DNA from: Craspedostauros australis
Taxonomy: Eukaryota; Bacillariophyta; Bacillariophyceae; Mastogloiales; Achnanthaceae
Assembly (NCBI GenBank): GCA_026770025.1
Contig: JAMXDE010000008.1
Location: forward strand, 62,001-126,000
DNA: 64,000 nt
Direction of reading: 5' to 3'
This document shows positions 2,837-30,404 of the stretch, in pieces (positions within the stretch are counted from its first letter, which is position 1; each line of letters begins with the position of its first letter). Both the position numbers and the translations under genes were made by a program. The notes beneath the pieces were generated by a model. The model was given only the letters and a program-made list of their open reading frames with translations. It did not search any database and had not been told where the DNA came from.

Positions 2837-5572
2837 TTACAGGACTTCGCAAGCGTTTGGGTTTGGCCCAGGGCAGTCATCGCTTGCGTCGTCGATCACG
2901 TACGTCTTTGCCACATCTCCACCACACAGCTCTGCCTGTGCACAACTATTACATCCGTTGCTTGCTGTGCAGGTATCCTTCTTGATAAGGATATCATTGA
3001 CTGCGGCGTCATTTTGGGCAAGGTATCTGCACGCTTCTTCTCCGTTACATGCATCCTCCTCAACGATCAAATTTCCTGCGGTTTTTGAACTAACCCCGGG
3101 CGCTGTATGCAACCCATTGCAAGCGAAAAACGCTTGGCATGCATTCTTTCCAATGAAGATATTTGCCACGATCGGTGACGTGGTAGCCCCTTGGCTGGCG
3201 CGGGAACCCACATCGTTGCATGCGCTTTCATCAATGCATGCTCCTTCTTCCACTCGTATGTTGCCAAAGACATTCTTTCCAACCCCGATGCAAGCATGCA
3301 ATGCATTGTTGCAGGCTCGTGGTCCAATCACCCTGTATCCGACTTCGACATCAGCAGCTGGCTCTATCGGGTCAAACCAGCCTAGTGCCTCACAAGGTCG
3401 ATTGCCACTGCAGCTTTCGAGTATGATTGTGTCGGGGCGCATCACGCCGCAGGCACGGGAGCCATTGCAAGACCCGTCGCTCACCGTCATCACGCCAGTT
3501 GTAGGCAAGGTGGTGCACACATTGCTACCGTCACAGCATGAGCCATTGCAAGCTGCACTCACCGCAGGCCCACTTCCAGTGTAGAGCTTCATGGTCGCCA
3601 CTGTGTCCAACAACGCATTGGTCACACCCGCATCGTTCTTGATCTTGTTGAAGCGTTTCTGAGCCACATCCAACGTCACGATGTTGGGAGTTGCTTCATC
3701 GTTGCATCCAAAGATGCTCTTGATCATCTTCCCCTTGTCACCAAGACTGTCGATTGCGGCCACAAACTCTGCACATGTGCCCGTTGTACCATCGCAGAAG
3801 ACCTCACCAGTGGTAATGGTATTGAACGTCGATCCTGTATCTCCCGGACCGGCGAGACATCCAACTTCCAAAGAGGTTCGGGGGGACGATTGGCTGGGCG
3901 CTTGGCACAGCAGATGCCAAATTGGTGGGGCTACTCGTTGGACTGGATGTGAGAGGTGTTGGAAAAGGAGTGGGGGAAAAAGTCGGACAGTCTGTGGGCA
4001 AGGTATCCTTGCCAACACAGTACTCATCCACCTTGTCTCCTGTTGGATTGTAGTTGGTGTCGCTTCCTCCCTTGGGACAGGCACCATCAACGTCACTGAT
4101 CAGGTACACCTCATCAATAGCGCATTCAGTGTTCGTCATGCATCCTCTGCAGCTCTCAACAGCGCCGCATCCATCAGGAGGGACAATGATGTCCGTTTTC
4201 ATCCTGTCGTTGAAACCCATCTTCTCGCATGACCCATCAGCGGTGCAGCCACCATCGCCGATGGTCAAGCTACCTGCAAGCTTGCCACCAGCGCCGTGAT
4301 TCACGCTTGAATGGGCATCCTTGCAGGCGTTGCTGCCAACACAAGCATTCGAGCCAATGTGGATGTGGCTGCGGAAGCGGAAGGACGAGCCTGATTGTTC
4401 CACACGGCGTCCAGCTGAGTTACATGCTTCGGATCCGATGCATGCGCCAGTCTGGATGGTCACATCACCATGGGATCGACGTCCCACTCCCTCGCAAGAT
4501 CGAGGGCTGATGCACGCCATCTCGCCAACGAAGGTGACTCCTGTGATGAAGGGATTGATCTCGTTCTCATTCATCAATTCACATGCACTCACGCCAGTGC
4601 AGGAGGAATCGAGAATGAGAGGATTGGGGCCCATGTCCTTGCAAGCGCTGTCGCCGGTACATGCAGTGACTGCGATGGTCATGAATGGAGGAGAGTCGGA
4701 GGCAGAACCGGTGACAGAGGTGCATCCCGAAGATCCTTGGCAGCATGGATCGATTGCGGGTGGCGACTGGGCCATCCCGATGGCCATGCAGGTCGCCTGC
4801 ATTGCGTCCGGTCGCTCGGTGATGAGGGTCGGCTTGGTGGCAGCGATCAACGCCAATTGACCAGCGAGCATGTCATTGGATGCGTATTGGTTGAAGAGCT
4901 TGCGTGCGGCTCCTTCGCCGAGGTCTCCTGCGCATCCGAAGAAGTTCTGCAAATCTGCGGACTCCTTGACGGCGGTGACGGCCTCGCGGCAGGATGGCTT
5001 GGCGGCATTGCAGATGATGGTCTTGGTACTGGCTTCTTCTGGCGTGAGAGCGGTGTCGCCATCTGGTTGGCAAGAGACTTCGATGGTGGAGTCGAAGGTG
5101 ATTGCGATTGGGGCAGCTGATGGCTTGGATGTTGGCATGAGAGTGGGCTGGGAGGTGGGAGAAGAGACTGTTTGGGTGGCCGGTGGCATCGAGGGCATCT
5201 CGGTTGGCGAGGTGGTCGGTGGGCCTGTTGGTGACGCGCCCGCCTCATCTATGGGAGATGAGGTCGGGGGACCCGTGGAGCTGGTAGTGGTCGGGCTGGC
5301 GGTTGGTGGTCCAGTCGGCGATGAGGTTAGTTCGGACAACTCTGTGTCAGTCGGCTGAGCCGATGGTGACTCGTGGTTGAACTTGTTGTTTTCCCAGTCT
5401 TGATGTTGCCGACGTCGAGATCAGTCCTGAGCTTGCGGGTGGCTCGCAATGCCAGGTGCATTTCATCAGCTGCATCTGTAATCTTGCGTCCATTGAGGCG
5501 AGCTTCGGTCATTGCCATGAAGATGACAAGGAGAGTAGCGGTGGTTGCGATTGTCTTGGTGCTGATCATCAT
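2837..5572 (-). CDS. secreted PT-linker/Cys-repeat protein with two tandem modules; reading frame broken twice
   Basis: The ATG at 5572 opens a signal peptide (hydrophobic TLLVIFMAM then TEA). The reading frame changes near 5385 (GGGAAAAC) into a Pro-Thr-rich linker and a first Cys-rich module of about 330 residues. It changes again at a six-C run near 3875, from which a second PT stretch leads into a second module homologous to the first. Each module opens with a Cys/Gly-rich head (EVSCQPDG / EVGCLAGPG), contains an F-F/I-G-C segment, then several C-x-G-x-x-A/S-C units (for example SCNGSRAC), and ends near a DDCPG/GACPK tail. One added base at the first site and one removed at the second would give a single protein of about 900 residues. 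This could be a recent pseudogene, a gene with homopolymer errors, or, for the first break only, an unseen intron. Probably a surface or wall protein. Confidence 0.65.
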
Positions 5573-6649
5573 GATTGCAGTGATGGATTATTTGTCGTTG
5601 AATGGTGCAGTGGTGGAGTTTGCTGGTGCTGTCGTTTTCAATTCGAATTGGAGCTTGTTGATTTTGTGAGGAGAGCGATGATGATGGTGCTCCTTCCTCC
5701 CGTCCCACCTTCAAACGATGCCAAAAGCCAAGGGACCCCGCAGGTTGGAGTTGTGGAGCGCATACTGTTGGTGCTGTGCGCCATGCCGTACCTGGCTGGC
5801 TGGTTGGCTTGAGTTCAGTTGAGTTCAGGTGTGTCTCCACTCATCGTGGAATCCATTCTGCGACGTCTTGAAATGCATGGTCAAGGTCAGCCACGAGGAC
5901 GATCGACATCTACGAGTTTGCGCGTTGATGCTCACAGAGAGTTGGTAGAGAGAGTTAGTTGACAGAGAGACATTTCACTTCACATCAGAGAGGATGCTCC
6001 TCTGCTTCCCCACACTCGCATCCCTCTCTGTTCTGTCATTTCATTTCCTTTGATCTTGTTTCGTGAGTTTCGCACTTTCTCATGTTTCCTCATAGAGCTG
6101 TATCATCTCTGACGATCATGTCACGCCGACATCATTGGACCTTGCGGTGCTCTTCAAGTTTGGGATTCCCAAACGAAGGAAAGTGATCGTGGGAGAACAA
6201 GATAACGGAGTTGCGGTGATTACTCATTATTTTCAGTTAGTCGACTTAATTGCATGTTGTAGTCCATCTAGTCGAATTCGCATCTTTTCTCTCTCTCCTC
6301 GCGGCTATCGTCCTGCTTTCCGCAGCCATGAGAGTATGGTCATCCAATCTCCGTGTGATTCTCACTACATCTTTCATTACACTTCATTGGTTACTTCATG
6401 TGTTACCTTACTCGTTGTTTCATTTGTTGCTTCGGTACTTCATTGCGTCATTCGTACGCTGCCTCGTCAGGTGGTCCGTTCATCCAATCGTTCATTTCAT
6501 CCTTCATGAATGCACATGAACTTGCAGGAGCACTTCGTTCACTGCCTTGTGCACATCTACTTCCTATTCAATCCATTTGGTGTGGAATAAGGTCCTGAAT
6601 ACTCACATGCAATGCTTGCGGTCCACCTGTGCCTTCAATTCATTGCAGC
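5573..6649. other. intergenic, nothing recognised
   Basis: Contains the CA-rich leader of the preceding minus-strand gene close to 5573-5640. The rest is mixed sequence without a supported reading frame, RNA gene or repeat that I could identify. Confidence 0.4.
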
Positions 6650-8197: not shown

Positions 8198-10537
8198 CTA
8201 AACAGCCGCCGCGGTTGCGCTGGCCTCGGTTGTGGCAGCCGGGCGTGCTTCTCCCATGCATACAGCCCAACCATTGCAGGCGTTGTCCTCGATTGGAATG
8301 TCGCTGTACATGCAGCTGTACACACCGTAGTAGTACTTCGCGAGGTCGTTGTCGACGTAGTTGCACGAGTTGTCCCCAACGTCGTAATCAACCTCGAAGC
8401 AATTCGAACCACCCGTGATCTGCCCGTTGCACGAGTTCGTCCCGATGTTACCATACGCCTTACCGCAGGCCCATCGAGCGTTGCACGAGTCGGGACCGAT
8501 CGTGATGGGCTTCGCTAGTTTGGAACACGACATGTACCCGTTGCAAGAGTCGGCACGGATGACATTGCCAGTGGCCATGCGGTCGCAGGCGAAGTTGCCG
8601 TTGCAGGAGTTCACTGCGATATCGACGCCCGGTTCGACGTAGTAGCATGAGTAATCACCGTTGCATGTGTTGTCGCAGACGCTGATGCTGCCTTCGAAGT
8701 AGCATGCCAGCTTGCCGGTGCAGCAGTCGTGCGTTTTGCACCAGTCGTTCACGACGTAGTAGTCGCCTGTGATGCAGTCGCCGCCGCCGCTGCCTTGATC
8801 GGAGGGAATCAAGCCCGTCGTGGGTTCCAACGTTGTCACGAAGGTCGGGATGGCCGTGGGTCTCGGCGTTGGATTCCAGGTTGGGGCGCTTGTTGGTATG
8901 TGAGTCGGACTGGCTGTGGGGTGACTCGTTGGAGTCATCGTCGGGTGAGACGTGGGATGGTCCGTGGGCCTTGCAGTTGGATGGCTCGTTGGACTCATCG
9001 TTGGATTTAGTGTCGGCCTGGGTGTGGGATACGGCACCGGTTGCCCCGTCGGCCTTGCTGTAGGTGATATGGTTGGGCTTCTCGTCGGCCTTGATGTGGG
9101 CATGTGCGTCGGTCTGGATGTCGGCGAAGCCGTGGGGCGCCTTGTGGGCCACATGGTGGGCTGTTTTGTTTGCATCGTTGGCATTGCCGTATCAGGTACA
9201 GGGTCAACTTGATCAGGGGTCGAAGCAATAGTTGTTGCTGCGGTGGTTGTGGTCGTCGTCGTGGTGGAAGTAGTAGTTGGAGGGGGAGGCTGCGTCGTTG
9301 TCGTCGTGGTGGTGGTGGTCGCAGTCGTCGTCGTCGGAGGAGGCTGCGTTGTCGTGGCAGTGGTCGTAGTAATCCTCACATCGCCGCTTTCACTGTCCGG
9401 CCGATCATGGTCGAAGATGTTATCATTCCAATCTTCCACTGGCTGGAGGCCGGAGGTTGCGTTCACAGTGCTGTTCGTGTCAGTTCCATTTACCTCAACG
9501 AGTATCAACGTTGGCACAGCACTTAGCGATGGTGCCGAGCTCATCGATGGAGCTTCGCTGGCGGTTGCATTGACACCCATATCATCGCTCTCATCTGTCG
9601 GGCAGTCCACTGGAGCTTCTTTCATTTTCTTGCTCGACTTCGATCCCTTCATGGTCTTCGCGGAAGAAGATGAACTTGAGCCCTTCATATTCTTTGGAGA
9701 CTTTGTGGATCCGGAGGATGTTGTTGTCTTTGGAGATTTGGTTGATCGAGGCGACTTCGTAGACCTAGGAGACTTCGTGGATTTGGGCGACTTCGTGCTA
9801 CGAGTGCGCTTCTTTGTTGCTGTGGTCTTCTTTTTCTTCGTGGCAAACGGCGCTTGCTCTCGTACGGTCTCATCTTCCTCATCGTCACTGTCGCTTTCGC
9901 TGCCCGATGGCGAGTTCGCCTTCTTCTTTGTGCCACCAGCACCTTTTGGTGAACCGCTGCGTGTGGTGCCGGCCTTGGTCAGCTTGCGATTTCCGCTTGT
10001 GGGAGCACACGCAGGTTGTTGCCGCCGGGTGGCCGTAGTTTTCTTTTTCGTCTGTCGTCGTGATACGGTGGCAGTCTCAAACTGCGTACTACCTCTCAAC
10101 CTGCCGAGGTTCTTCGTCGTTCTTCGAGGTTGCAATATGCCAATATCGACGAGCGGTGCGTCAACGCTGTCCCTCTCGCGGCTCCTGCTGCCATCCGCAC
10201 TGCCTGTAGTCTCATCTTCGGCGTCGTTGTGGTCGCCATCCAGTGAATCGATGCGTGTGCGTACCAGCCCAGGATCACTCCTATGAAGTATTGACGTATT
10301 GATGATGTCTCGTTCTTTGACCAAGGGAGCAGTCGCAGCGCCAACATTGGGCATGATCATGGTGTTGCCGCTGGCGCCTACCTGCATGGTGGCCATGTGC
10401 TGCTCCTTTTGCTGGGAATAAGCGGATGCGTAGCTGTCGTCGTACTCATCATCTTCACTCCTTCGTTGTGACGCCGCGGCCAACGCTGTGTTGGACAGCA
10501 GCAGAGTCAGCAGACTCGATTGGAATTGCAGCTTCAT
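8198..10537 (-). CDS. secreted silaffin-like Lys/Ser- and PT-rich protein with C-terminal Cys repeats
   Basis: 779 residues, intronless. I start at the ATG at 10537 (MKLQFQSSLLTLLL), which gives a clear signal peptide ending near ALAAA. Residues about 240-305 are Lys/Ser/Thr/Pro-rich with basic residues held at every third position, the K-x-x-K spacing of silaffin pentalysine clusters. Residues about 395-440 are Thr/Pro runs, and about 450-575 are PTxxPT repeats as in diatom frustule-associated proteins. From about 580 to the end is a Cys-rich domain with C-N-G-x-x-x-C units (SCNGNFAC, SCNGYMSC, SCNARWAC, ACNGWAVC), related to those of the 2837-5572 gene on the same strand. Inferred role: secreted wall or silica-associated protein. 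No direct evidence of silica binding. Confidence 0.85.
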   Translation of the reverse strand: MKLQFQSSLLTLLLSNTALAAASQRRSEDDEYDDSYASAYSQQKEQHMATMQVGASGNTMIMPNVGAATAPLVKERDIINTSILHRSDPGLVRTRIDSLDGDHNDAEDETTGSADGSRSRERDSVDAPLVDIGILQPRRTTKNLGRLRGSTQFETATVSRRQTKKKTTATRRQQPACAPTSGNRKLTKAGTTRSGSPKGAGGTKKKANSPSGSESDSDDEEDETVREQAPFATKKKKTTATKKRTRSTKSPKSTKSPRSTKSPRSTKSPKTTTSSGSTKSPKNMKGSSSSSSAKTMKGSKSSKKMKEAPVDCPTDESDDMGVNATASEAPSMSSAPSLSAVPTLILVEVNGTDTNSTVNATSGLQPVEDWNDNIFDHDRPDSESGDVRITTTTATTTQPPPTTTTATTTTTTTTTQPPPPTTTSTTTTTTTTAATTIASTPDQVDPVPDTAMPTMQTKQPTMWPTRRPTASPTSRPTHMPTSRPTRSPTISPTARPTGQPVPYPTPRPTLNPTMSPTSHPTARPTDHPTSHPTMTPTSHPTASPTHIPTSAPTWNPTPRPTAIPTFVTTLEPTTGLIPSDQGSGGGDCITGDYYVVNDWCKTHDCCTGKLACYFEGSISVCDNTCNGDYSCYYVEPGVDIAVNSCNGNFACDRMATGNVIRADSCNGYMSCSKLAKPITIGPDSCNARWACGKAYGNIGTNSCNGQITGGSNCFEVDYDVGDNSCNYVDNDLAKYYYGVYSCMYSDIPIEDNACNGWAVCMGEARPAATTEASATAAAV

Positions 10538-18220: not shown

Positions 18221-18925
18221 GTTTGTATTGTTGCGAATTGTGAGCTCTTGCGCCTCCTTGAATTATCAAAATGAAGCGAAAACCAACAATGTCAACGTTG
18301 TAACCGTTGAAATAGTAGACATAGTGCGCAAATAAACTGCAACTTGGTAAGGAGGAACCAGCGTTTCTCCGCGAACTCTGCGTGTCTCCTGGTAGACCAG
18401 TTGTTGTCGCCCTGTCGCTGTTGGGGAGCTGATCACGCGCTGTGTTCACCAGGGCGTGCAAGTCGCAGAGAAGGCAAGACAAGCGTTTCGTTGTCCCGCA
18501 ACGTCACTGTCAATTGCGCTTCGTCGCGCCCAAGGGCACCAAACAAGCCACAACCCAACGGAAAGCAAGGACACATTCTTGTATCCGTTGCCGAATAAAA
18601 CATCATCATCTTGTGTGTATCCACGACTTCTTGGAGGAGGGCGCGTGCGCGGTTCTGTTCGTCCTCCACTGTAACCAAGGAGCACTAAGCGCAGAGACAT
18701 GTTGTTTGAAGCGGTTGGTCATCCTGCGCGATGGCTCATCCCTGACTGCGCGGTGCTGTCCTCCTATTTACGGATCCCAGCAAACAGTTGTGCGCGGTAT
18801 GATGAATGATTGACCTTCATTCATGAGTATACAATTATGGACAGCAGGCTTCACCTTGAGATCCAACACATGTCGTGTCTAGGTCTTGTGCAAGTCGCGC
18901 TCCCGTCGAGCTCGTGTCCATGTCG

Positions 18926-19076
18926 GTTGCTCGTCGACTCCCCTCGTTTGCTCGTCGACTCCCCTCGTTTGCTCGTCGGACGCGCCTCGTTTGCTCGTCG
19001 ACTCCCCCTCGTTTGCTCGTCGATTCCCCAAGTTTGCTCGTCGATTCCCCAAGTTTGCTCGTCGATTCCCCTCAAG
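18926..19076 (+). repeat. 21-bp minisatellite array 1
   Basis: Seven units of about 21 bp built on TTTGCTCGTCGACTCCCC, with variants GTCGATTCCCC and GTCGGACGCGCC. The order of variants is partly shared with the second array, in the same orientation. Confidence 0.9.
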
Positions 19077-19390
19077 TGTGGACTATTTCTGTACTTTCGA
19101 CACGTCCCATACGACAAAATCATTTACAGCAACATGTCGCAGTATCGTAGATGACAAGGTTGCGATGCAAAACTCTCATGTCAATTGTGTTTCCGAACGC
19201 AGCTTTCAATCAACATCAACCACTTAAGCTGAACAACACAAGCTGCATGTCTCATCTGTCTTATCAATTTTTCATTTCTGCATCATACTGCAGGTAAAAA
19301 GACAACTATACCCGATGCATTAGCTTGATCAACTATCACCCCCATGTCGCAGTGCCAAATCCGCGGTATTTTGGGCTGATTTAGTGTCCT

Positions 19391-19528
19391 TTGCTCGTCG
19401 ATTCCCCAAGTTTGCTCGTCGATTCCCCTCGTTTGCTCGTCGACTCCCCTCGTTTGCTCGTCGGACGCGCCTCGTTTGCTCGTCGACTCCCCCTCGTTTG
19501 CTCGTCGATTCCCCAAGTTTGCTCGTCT
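19391..19528 (+). repeat. 21-bp minisatellite array 2
   Basis: Six full units plus a partial one of the same 21-bp family as at 18926. The run of variants GACTCCCC, GGACGCGCC, GACTCCCCC, GATTCCCC occurs in both arrays, so one array is probably a copy of the other rather than an independent expansion. Confidence 0.9.
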
Positions 19529-24743: not shown

Positions 24744-27700
24744 ATGAAGTTTGCAAGGAAGGGTGCTGTCTGGGCGTTGCTCGTATCCGCCCTTGCCGCC
24801 ATTCCCGCTGTGTACGCCCAAGGCGACGCGGTCGCGAACAGCGATGAACCCGCAACTGGCAGCGAGGTCTGTCCGTTGGACTATGAGCTCCTCCATTCCA
24901 CGGAAGGTGCCAGCTACGATCTTCCTCCCATCGAGATCATCAGCCAAAACAAGACCTTCGTCGAGTTCAAGGTCTACAACGTGTTTTCCACGGCTGGATC
25001 CATCAAGGAGATCTACACCGAGTACCAGGAGAACAACCTCGATAGAGCCACGTGCACCTTGGACGCCGATCTGGAGCCCGGGCAGCCTGCCGATGAGGTC
25101 TTCCGCGCGGAATGCCTCTGCCTCAAGCCCGTTGCCGTCGTCTCCCTCTACGTCCGAGACCCAACCATCGACGCAACCATTGGTACTGGCAAGACCCCAG
25201 AGTGCTGCCATGCCGATTTGACCAACGGATATCCAACCATCAAGTTCACCTTCCTCCTCGACTGTGTGCCAACCTGTGACCCCACCCCGTTCGCAGTCTG
25301 TGGCAACGGAAAGCTCGAAACAGGCGAGCTGTGTGACGACGGCAACGACGTCAACGACGACGGGTGCACCAACGAGTGCCTCCTCCCGAAGTGCGGAGAT
25401 GGCATTGTGCAAGACGACGAAGAGTGCGACATGGGCGCAGCCAACTCCAACAACGTGGACGCCGCCTGCACCGAAAGCTGCACAATCCCGAAGTGCGGGG
25501 ATGGCATCCTCCAAGGCAACGAGGAGTGTGACGATGGCAACACAATCAACGACGACGGCTGCTCGAACTCGTGCATCACCGAACTTTGCGGTGACGGCAT
25601 CAAGCAAGAAGGCGAAGAATGCGACGATGGCAACGACATCAACAACGATGATTGCACCAACAAATGCAAATTGCCAATCTGCGGCGATGGCATCAAGCAA
25701 GAAGACGAAGAATGTGACGATGGTAATTCCGACGACGAGGATGGTTGCACATCTCAATGCAAGATCCTTGTTTGCGGTGACGGCATCCTGCAGGGAGACG
25801 AAGAATGTGACGATGGAAACAAGGTCAACAACGATGGATGCAGCGAAACCTGCAAATTGGAGGTATGCGGCGACAGCATCAAGCAGGACGACGAGGAATG
25901 CGATCGCGGATCGCAGAACTCCGACGGCCCCAACGCCCAGTGCACGAAGGATTGCAAGTTCCCGGTGTGCGGAGACGGCATCCTGCAAGGCGACGAAGAA
26001 TGCGATGACGGCAACGATGTGAACGACGATGAATGCACCGGCGAATGTAAGTTGCCACGGTGCGGCGACGGCATCAAGCACAAGGGTGAGGAATGCGACG
26101 ACGGAAACAACGACAACAGTGACGGCTGCACCAACCAATGCAAGAAGGCAGTCTGCGGCGATGGCATCGTCGGACCAAACGAAGAATGCGATCACGGATC
26201 GCAGAACTCCGACGGCCCCAACGCCCAGTGCACGAAGGATTGCAAGCTCCCGGCGTGCGGAGACGGCATCCGCCAAAATGGAGAGGAGTGCGATGACGGA
26301 AACAAGATCAGCGGCGACGCCTGCACCAACCAATGCAAGAAGGCACGATGTGGGGACGGCATTGTCGGACCTAATGAACAGTGTGATCTCGGATCCCAGA
26401 ACTCCAACGGACCTAACGCCCGCTGCACTCTCGAATGTACCCGCCCCAAGTGTGGCGACGGCATCAAGCAGCAAGGCGAGCAGTGCGATCTTGGACCAAA
26501 CAACTCCGACGCGACCAACAGCAAGTGCTCCACCACCTGCGAGCTCCCGCGCTGCGGTGACGAGATTCTCCACCCATCCAGAAACGAGGAATGCGATCTC
26601 GGCGAAAACAACTCCAACGGACCCAACACCAGATGCAACGCCAACTGCAAGACCCCCAAGTGTGGTGACGGCATCATCAACAAGCGACTGGGTGAAGAAT
26701 GCGACAAGGGCAGCAACAACTCCGATGGCCCCAACGCGCAGTGCACCACCACGTGCACCCTGCCCACTTGTGGCGATGGCATCGTTCAAGGTGGCGAGGA
26801 ATGCGACGATGGCAACGACGTCAACAATGACAGCTGCACCAACCAATGCAAGAAAGCAAACTGCGGTGACGGAATCATTCAGCCAGGTGAGGAATGCGAC
26901 AAGGGTCCAAGCAATTCGAATGGACCTAACGCCCAGTGCACCACCACATGCAACATCCCCAAGTGTGGCGACGGCATCAAGCACAAGAACGAAGAATGTG
27001 ACGATGGCAACAACGTCAACAATGACAGCTGCACCAACACCTGCAAGAAGCCACGATGTGGCGACGGAATCAAGCAGGCCAATGAAGAATGCGACATGGG
27101 GCGGCACAACTCGAACGCAGCAAACGCCCAGTGCACCGCAGACTGTACCATCCCCAAGTGTGGTGACGGCATCAAGCACATCGGTGAACAATGCGACGAT
27201 GGAGACAAGGTCAACAACGACGAGTGCACTAACAACTGCAAGGTCCCAACTTGCGGTGACGGCATCAAGCAGAGCGGAGAGCAGTGCGACGACGGCAACA
27301 AGAACAACGCCGATGGTTGCACCAACAACTGCAGACTCCCACGCTGTGGTGATGGCATCAAGCAAGCCAACGAGCAGTGCGACGATGGAAACAAGGACAA
27401 CACCGATGGCTGCACCAACCAATGCAAGCTGGCTCGATGCGGCGATGGCATCAAGCAAGACAACGAACAGTGCGATCTCGGACCAAACAACAACAACGGT
27501 CCAAACACCAGCTGCTACACCGACTGCAAGGTCCCACGCTGTGGTGACAACCGTCTCAACAACAAAGCGGGTGAGCAGTGCGATCTCGGAGGACAGAACT
27601 CCGACGGTGCAAACACCAGATGCAACAAGAACTGCAAGCTTCCGCGCTGCGGCGATGGCCTTGTCAACAAGAGGCTCGGCGAGCAGTGCGATCGTGGAGC

Positions 27701-30404
27701 ACAGAACTCCGACGGCCCCAACGCCCAGTGCACGAAGGATTGCAAGCTCCCAGTGTGCGGAGACGGTATCCAACACAAGGATGAAGAATGCGACGACGGC
27801 AACCAAGTCAACAACGACAACTGCACCAACGAATGCACGAAAGTGCGATGTGGTGATGGCATCCGCCAAAATGGAGAGGAGTGCGACGATGGCAACAAGA
27901 ACAACAACGACAGCTGCACCAACGGATGCAAGAAGGCACGATGTGGCGATGGGTTCAAAGCACCCAACGAAGAGTGCGACGACGGCAACACCAACAACAG
28001 CGACGACTGCACCAACCAATGCAAGAAAGCACGATGTGGTGATGGGTTCAAAGCACCCAACGAAGAGTGCGACGATGGCAACAACGTCAACACCGACAGC
28101 TGCACCAACCAATGCAAGAAAGCACGATGTGGCGACGGCATCGTCGGACCTCATGAACAGTGTGATCTCGGACCTCACAACTCCAATTCCGCCGGTTCAC
28201 AGTGCACAACCAAGTGCCAGAAACCAAGATGTGGTGATGGCATCCGCCATAATGGAGAGGAGTGTGACGATGGCAACAATAACAACAACGACAGCTGCAC
28301 CAACCAATGCAAGAAAGCACGATGTGGCGACGGCATCGTCGGACCTCATGAACAGTGTGATCTCGGACCTCACAACTCCAATTCCCCCGGTTCACGGTGC
28401 ACAACCAAGTGCCAGAAGCCAAGATGCGGTGATGGCATCCGCCAAAATGGAGAGGAGTGCGACGATGGCAACAACATCAACAATGACAGCTGCACCAACC
28501 AATGCAAGCGCGCAAAATGCGGTGACGGCATCGTCGGACCTCATGAACAGTGTGATCTCGGACCTCACAACTCCAATTCCGCCGGTTCACAGTGCACAAC
28601 CAAGTGCCAGAAGCCAAGATGTGGTGATGGAATCCGCCAAAATGGAGAGGAGTGCGACGATGGCAACACGAGGAACACCGACAGCTGCACCAACAACTGC
28701 AAGAAGGCACGATGTGGGGACGGCATCGTCGGACCTCATGAACAGTGTGATCTCGGACCTCACAACTCCAATTCCCCCGGTTCACAGTGCACAACCAAGT
28801 GCCAGAAACCAAGATGTGGTGATGGAATCCGCCAACATGGAGAGGAATGCGACGATGGCAACAACATCAACACCGACAGCTGCACCAACCAATGCAAGAA
28901 GGCACGATGTGGCGACGGCATCGTCGGACCTCATGAACAGTGTGATCGCGGCTATCACAACTCCAATTCCGCCGGTTCACAGTGCACAACCAAGTGCCAG
29001 AAACCAAGATGTGGTGATGGAATCCGCCAAAATGGAGAGGAGTGTGACGATGGCAACAACATCAACACCGACAGCTGCACCAACAACTGCAAGAAGGCAC
29101 GATGTGGGGACGGCATCGTCGGACCTCATGAACAGTGTGATCGCGGCTATCACAACTCCAATTCCGCCGGTTCACAGTGCACAACCAAGTGCCAGAAACC
29201 AAGATGTGGTGATGGTATCCGTCAAAATGGAGAGGAGTGCGACGACGGCAACACGAAGAACACGGACAGCTGCAGGAACGACTGCAAGAAGGCACGATGT
29301 GGTGATGGGATCGTTTCAACTGGCGAAGAGTGCGACGACGGCAACAATAACAACAATGACAGCTGCACCAACGAATGCAAGAAGCGTGATACCGTATGCC
29401 CGGAGGTGAAGCTCGACTTCAACGACTATCCCAGTACAGGATTCATCTATGACGAGTGGTGGGGACCCAAGGGCGTCAAGGTGATCGCGAAGGCCAACAA
29501 CAGGAACGCCGGATACACCCCCCGACCACGATCAGGATGCCGATCTGGATCACTCAACTGCTACTGCAAGGACTGGAGGAGCAGCCGCCCTACAAGCTGC
29601 CCACACTGGCAGAGCACCAACAACGGCGGAGGAGCTGCCCGTGTGTTCGACACATGGAAACCAAGAGGATACAAGCGCGGTACGTACGAGGAGCGCAAGG
29701 GATGGAACAACCCACTCTGCGATGCCGACGACGAGTACGCTGGAGATGACGACTTGGGCACACCCAACAGATCCTGCGGTGGCCCTGGTGTCGGCAACGG
29801 AGGCAAGAAGGGCAGGAAGTACCAGAACTGCCAAAAGCTCGGCAGAGTCCTCATCATCCAGGAGGGCAAGAAGACCTGCCCAGACGACGTTGGCTCCCCA
29901 GGAGGAACCATCTCTTTCGAATTCGACACCGCCAGGCACGGTGGAGTCGAGGTCACACTGGGCAAGTTCATCGACATCGATGACGGATACACGAACCCGA
30001 TCGTCGATTTCACAGAGGTCGGCAGGTCAAGCCCAACTCCCGGGCTCCGGAAGTACACCCAGCTCACAGGAGGCAACGGAGTTTTCGACCTCAGGGTCTC
30101 CGTCAAGAACGTCAGACGCGTGCAGATCAGCTACAGAGGATCCGGCTGCATCGCCGAGGTGCGCTTCCGCCCCAGCAAGTGCCCACGACGTATGCTGCGT
30201 GTTGAGGAGGACGGATCGTTCAACCTTGGCAACTACACCAGCACCGAAGAGTATGACGACTTCCAGGACGACTACGAATCGGAATTCATCCAGTTCGGCG
30301 GCGCAGCGCAGGGTCATCAGTACGAAGAGACTGAGCCAGCCATTGACACCGACCACGTCGTCTACCCCGAGGAGGCTGAGGACATGTTCCCCATGGATGC
30401 ATAA
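24744..30404 (+). CDS. secreted giant Cys-repeat protein (DUF4215-type units)
   Basis: 1886 residues, intronless. ATG after a CCAAA/CAAC-rich leader gives a signal peptide (KGAVWALLVSALAAIPAVYA, then Q). Residues about 25-170 are a non-repetitive head. From about 185 to 1550 there are some 42 units in two alternating lengths: a 31-residue form (CGDGIRQNGEECDDGN...CTNQCKKAR) and a 34-residue form (CGDGIVGPHEQCDLG...CTTKCQKPR), each with four conserved Cys and an Asp/Asn-rich loop, the signature of DUF4215/Myxococcus Cys-rich repeats. A C-terminal globular region (about 1552-1815) with its own Cys ends in a beta-rich part (VQISYRGSGCIAEVRF) before an acidic tail. Asp-rich units suggest Ca2+ binding or adhesion at the cell surface; that is inference. 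No frame lesion despite the length. Confidence 0.9.
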   Translation: MKFARKGAVWALLVSALAAIPAVYAQGDAVANSDEPATGSEVCPLDYELLHSTEGASYDLPPIEIISQNKTFVEFKVYNVFSTAGSIKEIYTEYQENNLDRATCTLDADLEPGQPADEVFRAECLCLKPVAVVSLYVRDPTIDATIGTGKTPECCHADLTNGYPTIKFTFLLDCVPTCDPTPFAVCGNGKLETGELCDDGNDVNDDGCTNECLLPKCGDGIVQDDEECDMGAANSNNVDAACTESCTIPKCGDGILQGNEECDDGNTINDDGCSNSCITELCGDGIKQEGEECDDGNDINNDDCTNKCKLPICGDGIKQEDEECDDGNSDDEDGCTSQCKILVCGDGILQGDEECDDGNKVNNDGCSETCKLEVCGDSIKQDDEECDRGSQNSDGPNAQCTKDCKFPVCGDGILQGDEECDDGNDVNDDECTGECKLPRCGDGIKHKGEECDDGNNDNSDGCTNQCKKAVCGDGIVGPNEECDHGSQNSDGPNAQCTKDCKLPACGDGIRQNGEECDDGNKISGDACTNQCKKARCGDGIVGPNEQCDLGSQNSNGPNARCTLECTRPKCGDGIKQQGEQCDLGPNNSDATNSKCSTTCELPRCGDEILHPSRNEECDLGENNSNGPNTRCNANCKTPKCGDGIINKRLGEECDKGSNNSDGPNAQCTTTCTLPTCGDGIVQGGEECDDGNDVNNDSCTNQCKKANCGDGIIQPGEECDKGPSNSNGPNAQCTTTCNIPKCGDGIKHKNEECDDGNNVNNDSCTNTCKKPRCGDGIKQANEECDMGRHNSNAANAQCTADCTIPKCGDGIKHIGEQCDDGDKVNNDECTNNCKVPTCGDGIKQSGEQCDDGNKNNADGCTNNCRLPRCGDGIKQANEQCDDGNKDNTDGCTNQCKLARCGDGIKQDNEQCDLGPNNNNGPNTSCYTDCKVPRCGDNRLNNKAGEQCDLGGQNSDGANTRCNKNCKLPRCGDGLVNKRLGEQCDRGAQNSDGPNAQCTKDCKLPVCGDGIQHKDEECDDGNQVNNDNCTNECTKVRCGDGIRQNGEECDDGNKNNNDSCTNGCKKARCGDGFKAPNEECDDGNTNNSDDCTNQCKKARCGDGFKAPNEECDDGNNVNTDSCTNQCKKARCGDGIVGPHEQCDLGPHNSNSAGSQCTTKCQKPRCGDGIRHNGEECDDGNNNNNDSCTNQCKKARCGDGIVGPHEQCDLGPHNSNSPGSRCTTKCQKPRCGDGIRQNGEECDDGNNINNDSCTNQCKRAKCGDGIVGPHEQCDLGPHNSNSAGSQCTTKCQKPRCGDGIRQNGEECDDGNTRNTDSCTNNCKKARCGDGIVGPHEQCDLGPHNSNSPGSQCTTKCQKPRCGDGIRQHGEECDDGNNINTDSCTNQCKKARCGDGIVGPHEQCDRGYHNSNSAGSQCTTKCQKPRCGDGIRQNGEECDDGNNINTDSCTNNCKKARCGDGIVGPHEQCDRGYHNSNSAGSQCTTKCQKPRCGDGIRQNGEECDDGNTKNTDSCRNDCKKARCGDGIVSTGEECDDGNNNNNDSCTNECKKRDTVCPEVKLDFNDYPSTGFIYDEWWGPKGVKVIAKANNRNAGYTPRPRSGCRSGSLNCYCKDWRSSRPTSCPHWQSTNNGGGAARVFDTWKPRGYKRGTYEERKGWNNPLCDADDEYAGDDDLGTPNRSCGGPGVGNGGKKGRKYQNCQKLGRVLIIQEGKKTCPDDVGSPGGTISFEFDTARHGGVEVTLGKFIDIDDGYTNPIVDFTEVGRSSPTPGLRKYTQLTGGNGVFDLRVSVKNVRRVQISYRGSGCIAEVRFRPSKCPRRMLRVEEDGSFNLGNYTSTEEYDDFQDDYESEFIQFGGAAQGHQYEETEPAIDTDHVVYPEEAEDMFPMDA
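28128..29297 (+). repeat. six tandem 195-bp coding dimers
   Basis: Within the DUF4215-type gene, 34-residue and 31-residue units alternate strictly for 1170 bp, exactly six copies of a 195-bp dimer, with very high nucleotide identity including synonymous sites. Earlier units are mixed in order and more diverged, so this block is a recent expansion. Confidence 0.9.

Follow-up and report, generated by a model that had tools for sequence, protein, structure and literature searches.

Architecture of the protein at 8198–10537

The window, a stretch of 64,000 nucleotides from Craspedostauros australis (contig JAMXDE010000008.1, positions 62,001–126,000), carries on its minus strand at 8198–10537 a single open frame with an ATG start, whose ORF translation gives a 779-residue protein of secreted type that joins a basic lattice to PT repeats and a DUF7640 domain. 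The gene has one full-length place in the 74.8-Mb, 90-contig genome, and a second match spans 81 bases. Judged by eye, the N-terminus is likely an ER signal peptide (residues 1–20, MKLQFQSSLLTLLLSNTALAAAS; 10478–10537). Sequence and family comparison pick out a GRL (residues 145–147, within NLGRLRG at 143–149; 10097–10105), which lies 39 residues ahead of RKL (184–186; 9980–9988), the sole R-x-L of the protein and a likely propeptide cleavage site. Beyond it, on the same strand, come an acidic Ser/Asp cluster SESDSDDEEDE (213–223; 9869–9901), the lattice, with 17 Lys/Arg in one period-3 register (246–306; 9620–9802), a Thr-rich tract with QPPP breaks (about 390–435; 9233–9370), PT repeats (about 452–570; 8828–9184) and a Cys-rich repeat region (588–762; 8252–8776). 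A 347-residue open frame runs antisense to this gene (9243–10286, plus strand) and is in our judgement an artefact of its composition. Nine sequences of solved structures match the protein at E values up to 0.1, their best alignments falling in the PT/Thr region and one extending from there into the Cys-rich domain; we take the PT/Thr alignments for composition and reject these matches as homologues.

The Cys-rich region belongs to Pfam DUF7640 (PF24646; E 1.5e-14, 54.7 bits against a curated cut-off of 28.1, best stretch 641–728), a domain shared with the relatives described below and to which Pfam assigns no function. Its N-cap follows the pattern CxTG...C...CC...C...CNG, and an alignment of this part across 11 sequences (alignment A1) has eight invariant columns (G4, C13, C18, C19, C25, C38, G40 and C44 in the numbering of the window sequence). 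The whole protein holds 22 cysteines. In the middle of the domain, Cys pairs recur every 20 residues (625, 645, 665 and 685), and over 44 genes of the family the distance from one C-x5-C pair to the next is 18 residues in 397 of 502 gaps. This periodicity is consistent with a solenoid; a single-sequence AlphaFold model of 8201–8806 has regular strands that suggest a β-solenoid, at a mean pLDDT (43.6) too weak for it to be used.

A neighbouring region at 2837–5587, also on the minus strand, is probably a single gene of at least two exons. It has a signal-peptide-like exon, TRKLR, Cys-rich regions of CNG type and PT repeats. One of its frames matches DUF7640 weakly (E 0.034) and the other does not; no lattice occurs in the frames read. 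Two further features of the window are a plus-strand frame at 24747–30404 (1885 residues, with 32 stretches of the Cys-rich DUF4215) lying over 93/195-base tandem repeats, and two arrays of one 21-base repeat at 18923–19073 and 19390–19527.

A single period-3 register and its recurrence in paralogues

From RSTKSPK to KKMK (residues 246–306), Lys or Arg occupies 17 of 21 phase-0 positions, 1 of 20 phase-1 positions and none of 20 in phase 2, such that 17 of the 18 basic residues share one register (Arg at three of the 17, Lys at the rest). The hypergeometric chance of this register, multiplied by three for the choice of phase, is 5.5e-10, and that of the 36-residue tail beyond the hexapeptide core, with 8 of 9 in the same register, is 1.3e-4; these P values disregard the hexapeptide repeat of the core, which is by itself a source of register. 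On a lattice score whose form and segment end points were our own choice, none of 10,000 shuffles of residues 181–312 reaches the observed 13.6 (shuffle maximum 8.3), and no other among the window's 577 stop-to-stop frames with a length of 60 residues or more exceeds 6.5, the next-best value. The preliminary description had proposed 17 Lys/Arg in one register over about 61 residues, and this holds, beyond shuffling. It had also pointed to the register being kept across Ser-rich gaps of nine residues; this is seen, and by our reckoning the two gaps, taken alone, contribute a factor of only about (1/3)^2. A degenerate K-S-x tripeptide describes the unit best (KSP KST KSP RST ... KNM KGS ... KTM KGS KSS), so that the register over the nine-residue gaps amounts to decayed triplets between intact ones.

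Searching the same genome with the Cys-rich domain finds 51 places, and the PF24646 profile at least 163 matches (150 of 358 candidates scored), which among the matches listed come by hand count to about 55 different open frames; the profile has no match in any of 14 control genomes. Our comparison drew on 44 genes, with the window gene among them: 42 of the roughly 55 DUF7640 frames plus L037 and L046. The 13 frames left out stand mostly low in the list, and the family figures therefore hold for the nearer relatives. Outside this genome, relatives were sought in two collections in which diatoms are not to be expected: 25 stretches of a viral contig collection matched a pattern and no relative was confirmed among them; in a prokaryote contig collection, a single-protein query suited to close relatives only gave four matches, none confirmed.

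The segment that runs from R-x-[LM] to the first Cys of the domain could be parsed in thirty genes, and 28 of these carry a period-3 run of Lys/Arg after R-x-[LM], mostly (K-S-x)n. In 22 the run starts within two residues of RXL, as in RQL-KSSKSAKSAKSSKSSKSAKSSKAFK of L020; it is displaced or broken in six, and two genes (L074 and L079) have no lattice. All 30 belong to one genome as paralogues and do not count as independent cases. Seven entered as loci of a lattice query, their domains being found by the domain or the PF24646 search as well; the other 23 were recruited by domain, and 21 of those have the lattice. Pooled over 27 distinct segments, the best phase of each takes in 181 of 198 Lys/Arg, against a mean of 97 and a maximum of 110 in 5000 shuffles. 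Enrichment is seen at spacings of 3, 6, 9, 12 and 15 and depletion at every other spacing up to 14; of 171 gaps between neighbours, 155 equal exactly 3. In 20 of the 30 relatives the segment keeps all its Lys/Arg in one phase; among the ten that depart from a single phase, five are split at the same place by a one-residue shift (KSEKSSSKGAK or KPEKSSSKGAK).

Fourteen of the 44 genes were left out before this count, for want of a parsable N-cap or RXL or as PT-rich: the window gene, five genes of contig 56, L046, L023, L030, L034, L035, L036, L037 and L080. Of these, L030 has HQLKASKESK and L034 short KxxK runs, and no K..K..K run occurs in L023, L035, L036, L037 or L080, several of which are incomplete. 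The preliminary description had seen a danger to its reading in orthologues without the lattice; within the paralogues, to which our comparison is confined, 28 of the 30 parsed genes keep it, and four KGK/KDN paralogues of contig 56 and some others are without.

The window protein differs from most of these relatives in that its lattice begins about 60 residues after RKL and not directly after it. Composition alone predicts about 1.3 R-x-L in the protein, so that the one found carries no weight by number and the case for RKL rests on its place after GRL and on the relatives. GRL precedes R-x-L/M by 24–47 residues in 33 of the 44 family genes, the window gene included; among the others, L044, L046 and L079 have none. 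It is possibly a second processing or sorting signal within the propeptide.

By domain, the nearest relatives lie on contig 56 (43–48% identical to the window domain in A1), with basic modules of several kinds: RKL-AKSSKSPKASKAFKK in one gene, KKKKGKGKGKGK in two and KDK/KDN repeats in two, KGK or KDN modules replacing the lattice in four of these paralogues. At 328–357 kb of this contig (L041–L044), two DUF7640 genes are duplicated in opposite orientation around a third, and an open frame of 2273 residues, copia-like by eye, lies between the copies. The architecture of the window protein is repeated by L046 on contig 43, with a signal-peptide-like start, RSL directly ahead of ATKSPKSTKSPKSTKTPKSTKAPK, PT repeats and a CNG domain; its STKSPK lattice is the most similar that we found, and its domain is only 31% identical to that of the window protein in A1. 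From sequence, then, the DUF7640 domain seems to be kept amid rapid turnover of the basic modules. As computed, a domain tree of 34 rows does not group these two STKSP genes; its long branches make both positions unsafe, and we draw no evolutionary conclusion from it. Two small proteins, L048 (contig 15, about 967.3–968.0 kb) and L055 (contig 32, about 452.9 kb), have signal-peptide-like starts and otherwise consist almost wholly of (TKSPSA)-type repeats headed by RRL or RAL; they have no Cys domain and are a possible silaffin-like class of their own.

Comparison with biosilica proteins and a proposed role

The preliminary description likened the protein to silaffins, and part of this likeness stands. 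A putative signal peptide, an RXL site and a basic Ser-rich region are shared with silaffins, and PT repeats with TpSil1 (PMC5501833 and PMC4557024). A published composition screen, as excerpted from PMC3478156, requires an ER signal peptide and a 100-residue stretch in which Ser makes up no less than 18% and Lys no less than 10%; the window protein passes its Ser/Lys part in 95 such stretches (the best with 26 Ser and 22 Lys), and of the 43 other family genes, some of them incomplete, only 10 pass it. The genome is also rich in silicon transporters, PF03842 having 88 reported matches that include, by our count, 28 near full-length copies without stops (for example among L003–L010) besides many fragments and stop-bearing copies. 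Excerpts of two sources give one to two such genes in Parmales and three to eight in diatoms (PMC10328945), and up to more than 30 across diatoms and Parmales (PMC13403384); we take the 28, above the three to eight of the former, as a large expansion.

Membership of the silaffin family does not stand. Silaffins, cingulins and silacidins are described in the available text of PMC5525289 as having one Cys or none, and silaffins as random coil; the 22 Cys of the window protein rule out membership of any of the three families as so described. Arg at three of the 17 lattice positions makes the lysine modifications of silaffins impossible at those sites. Silicanin-1 is a biosilica protein with a signal peptide, RXL and a Cys-rich luminal part (18 Cys); it differs in being NQ-rich with a transmembrane helix, and neither a lattice nor PT repeats are described for it in the same excerpt (PMC5525289).

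The combination of lattice, PT repeats and Cys-repeat domain had also been put forward as one not known to be described, and this is supported only in part. KXXK with PT repeats is already on record for 14 proteins including TpSil1 (excerpt of PMC5501833). With KXXK proteins defined by X as S or G and by motifs one to six residues apart, the window protein has only KGSK and KSSK, overlapping at 297–303, most of its spacers containing T or P; two or more K[SG][SG]K occur in 14 of the 43 other genes. The lattice together with DUF7640 was not found in the open-licence literature searched, nor were DUF7640 by name, the lattice sequence strings, KXXK in a cysteine-rich diatom silica protein, or a silaffin with an every-third Lys register or polyproline. 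The pentalysine cluster rule, as other papers give it, asks for five non-consecutive Lys within 12–14 residues. Residues 294–306 (KTMKGSKSSKKMK) come near to it, with Lys at 294, 297, 300, 303 and 306 in 13 residues and K304 adding a consecutive pair; a strict script that forbids KK returns none in the window protein, and it finds the cluster in 26 of the 43 other genes.

The closest published counterparts are lysine-enriched regions (LERs) of the form K(X)2K, which appear to influence frustule targeting (excerpt of PMC9650480). The comparison cases are mostly from Thalassiosira pseudonana. The LERs of CinW2/CinY2 and Tp12162/Tp5357 in that species share with the proteins here a signal peptide (putative in the window protein), K(X)2K clusters and small spacers, though these are mostly S/G in the LERs and S/T/P/A in the lattices here. 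In the eight LERs of Table 1 in that source, the best phase accounts for 31 of 55 Lys (26.9 on average after shuffling, with 138 of 5000 shuffles equal to or above the observed value); the corresponding Lys/Arg figures are 17 of 18 for the window protein and 181 of 198 for its relatives. Their neighbour gaps are mixed (3 in 31 cases, 4 in 10, 5 in five and 2 in one), compared with 155 of 171 equal to 3 in the relatives; the most regular of the longer LERs is that of Tp5357 (6 of 9). Given this weak register and these mixed gaps, the long-range register differs in the data compared. The available text of PMC9650480 does not mention DUF7640 for the LER proteins.

The most likely reading, by analogy, is that the lattice would work like the targeting region of a silaffin or cingulin in a protein outside those families. 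Clustered Lys with phosphoserine target tpSil3, and RXL is proposed as a possible general processing motif of silaffins, frustulins, cingulins and silacidins (both in excerpts of PMC4557024). Up to 2017, biosilica-associated proteins were the only ones on record with RXL cleavage sites, and the N-terminal RXL was called a propeptide cleavage site whose processing role was still to be proven (excerpt of PMC5647440). As judged from sequence, RXL, a period-3 Lys lattice and DUF7640 together are a family signature, and a variant of the known biosilica-targeting lysine regions.

Building on the observed architecture, register and recurrence of RXL with the lattice in paralogues, we favour, with modest confidence, a secreted and RXL-processed protein whose basic Ser-rich lattice would anchor a disulfide-rich repeat domain to silica or its organic matrix. 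After entry into the ER, an RXL protease would cut at RKL (184–186), as the family suggests, leaving a mature chain that would start in a basic, disordered region built around the degenerate (K-S-x)n, in which each third residue is Lys/Arg. Ser/Thr of this region would likely be phosphorylated and its Lys modified, and the lattice may bind silica or a polyamine/phosphate matrix in the silica deposition vesicle; this binding would hold a glycosylated PT stalk and the DUF7640 domain in or on the frustule. A polyproline-II chain has three residues per turn, so that an exact period of 3 would place all charges along one edge of an extended chain of this kind. Several observations weigh against the reading: the distance from RKL to the lattice in the window protein, the contig-56 paralogues and the neighbouring CNG gene in which no lattice is seen, the ten relatives that leave a single phase, the few relatives that pass the Ser/Lys screen, and Arg at three lattice positions. 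Tentatively, and as a more doubtful extension, a large diatom family might use such a strict one-edged comb of charge as its silica or polyamine–phosphate anchor, forming a frustule-matrix class separate from silaffins and cingulins in which the register carries information beyond lysine density.

The strongest alternative, which we hold to be unlikely, places the protein off silica as a cell-surface or mucilage glycoprotein, with O-glycosylated PT/Thr tracts, a lattice bound to acidic coat polysaccharides and a Cys-rich surface or adhesive module. The long Thr and PT tracts suit it, as do the adjoining PT and CNG gene without a lattice and the size and variability of the DUF7640 family, both common among surface proteins. 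Against this, RXL lies directly ahead of the Lys run in 22 of the 30 parsed relatives, which points to processing of the biosilica type, and the listed lattice-bearing DUF7640 relatives except L046 have no more than three PT (0–3), so that lattice and PT stalk are separable.

Anchoring by the lattice, if it holds, would matter since biosilica proteins are hard to find, being disordered and poorly conserved: the succession of RXL, period-3 Lys lattice and conserved Cys-rich domain makes a searchable signature, one that would tie a Pfam domain of unassigned function to frustule assembly. The strict register, weak in the published regions compared, allows a sharp test in which composition is kept and register shifted, and the paralogues with KSx, STKSP, KGK and KDN modules form a natural series on silica targeting by lysine-rich sequence.

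Codons and the origin of the register

A different explanation sees in the lattice a mere low-complexity tripeptide repeat kept by slippage, its register being without function. We consider this improbable, even though the unit is K-S-x, any tandem repeat of which yields a register, and segment length varies between paralogues. In the window lattice, codons for the same residue 3, 6, 9 or 12 residues apart agree at about chance level; at a step of six, Ser codons are identical in 0 of 8 cases (1.6 expected) and Thr codons in 3 of 5 (1.4 expected). Five STKSP[K/R] units give a saturated pS of 0.84 and a pN of 0.12; because the units were picked by their residues, the low pN is partly by construction, and the informative figure is pS. 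Synonymous codons do differ between lattice units, as had been remarked from the sequence at the outset, and with codons thus randomised we reject the idea that the window protein owes its register to recent duplication of DNA.

The relatives give a more divided picture. Their Ser codons six residues apart are identical in 35 of 116 cases (22.6 expected) and those nine apart in 34 of 91 (17.7 expected); this excess over chance, a point in favour of slippage, means that some duplication inside their lattices has occurred. Between adjacent units, on the other hand, Lys codons are identical less often than chance predicts (75 of 158, 104 expected), and for Ser codons the frequency is close to chance (28 of 122, 23.8 expected). 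Lys sites also resist replacement: across 14 close paralogue pairs, changes at Lys sites are synonymous in 13 cases and nonsynonymous in three, two of which stem from mismatched segment ends, compared with 25 and 39 at other sites (Fisher P 0.004, for pairs that are not independent). The randomised units of the window protein and the retention of the lattice in 28 of 30 relatives weigh against slippage as well.

The KSPK/KSPR units, presumably similar to SPKK motifs, might point to a protein that binds nucleic acid in the manner of SPKK/histone H1 and whose signal peptide is spurious; this is hardly credible given the signal-peptide-like N-termini seen by eye in the window gene and many relatives, the 22 Cys with a disulfide-type domain and the PT repeats.

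In the relatives, for example L020, L029 and L064, a switch between the Lys codons AAG and AAA from one unit to the next is commoner than chance predicts, which is perhaps a trace of selection against slippage.
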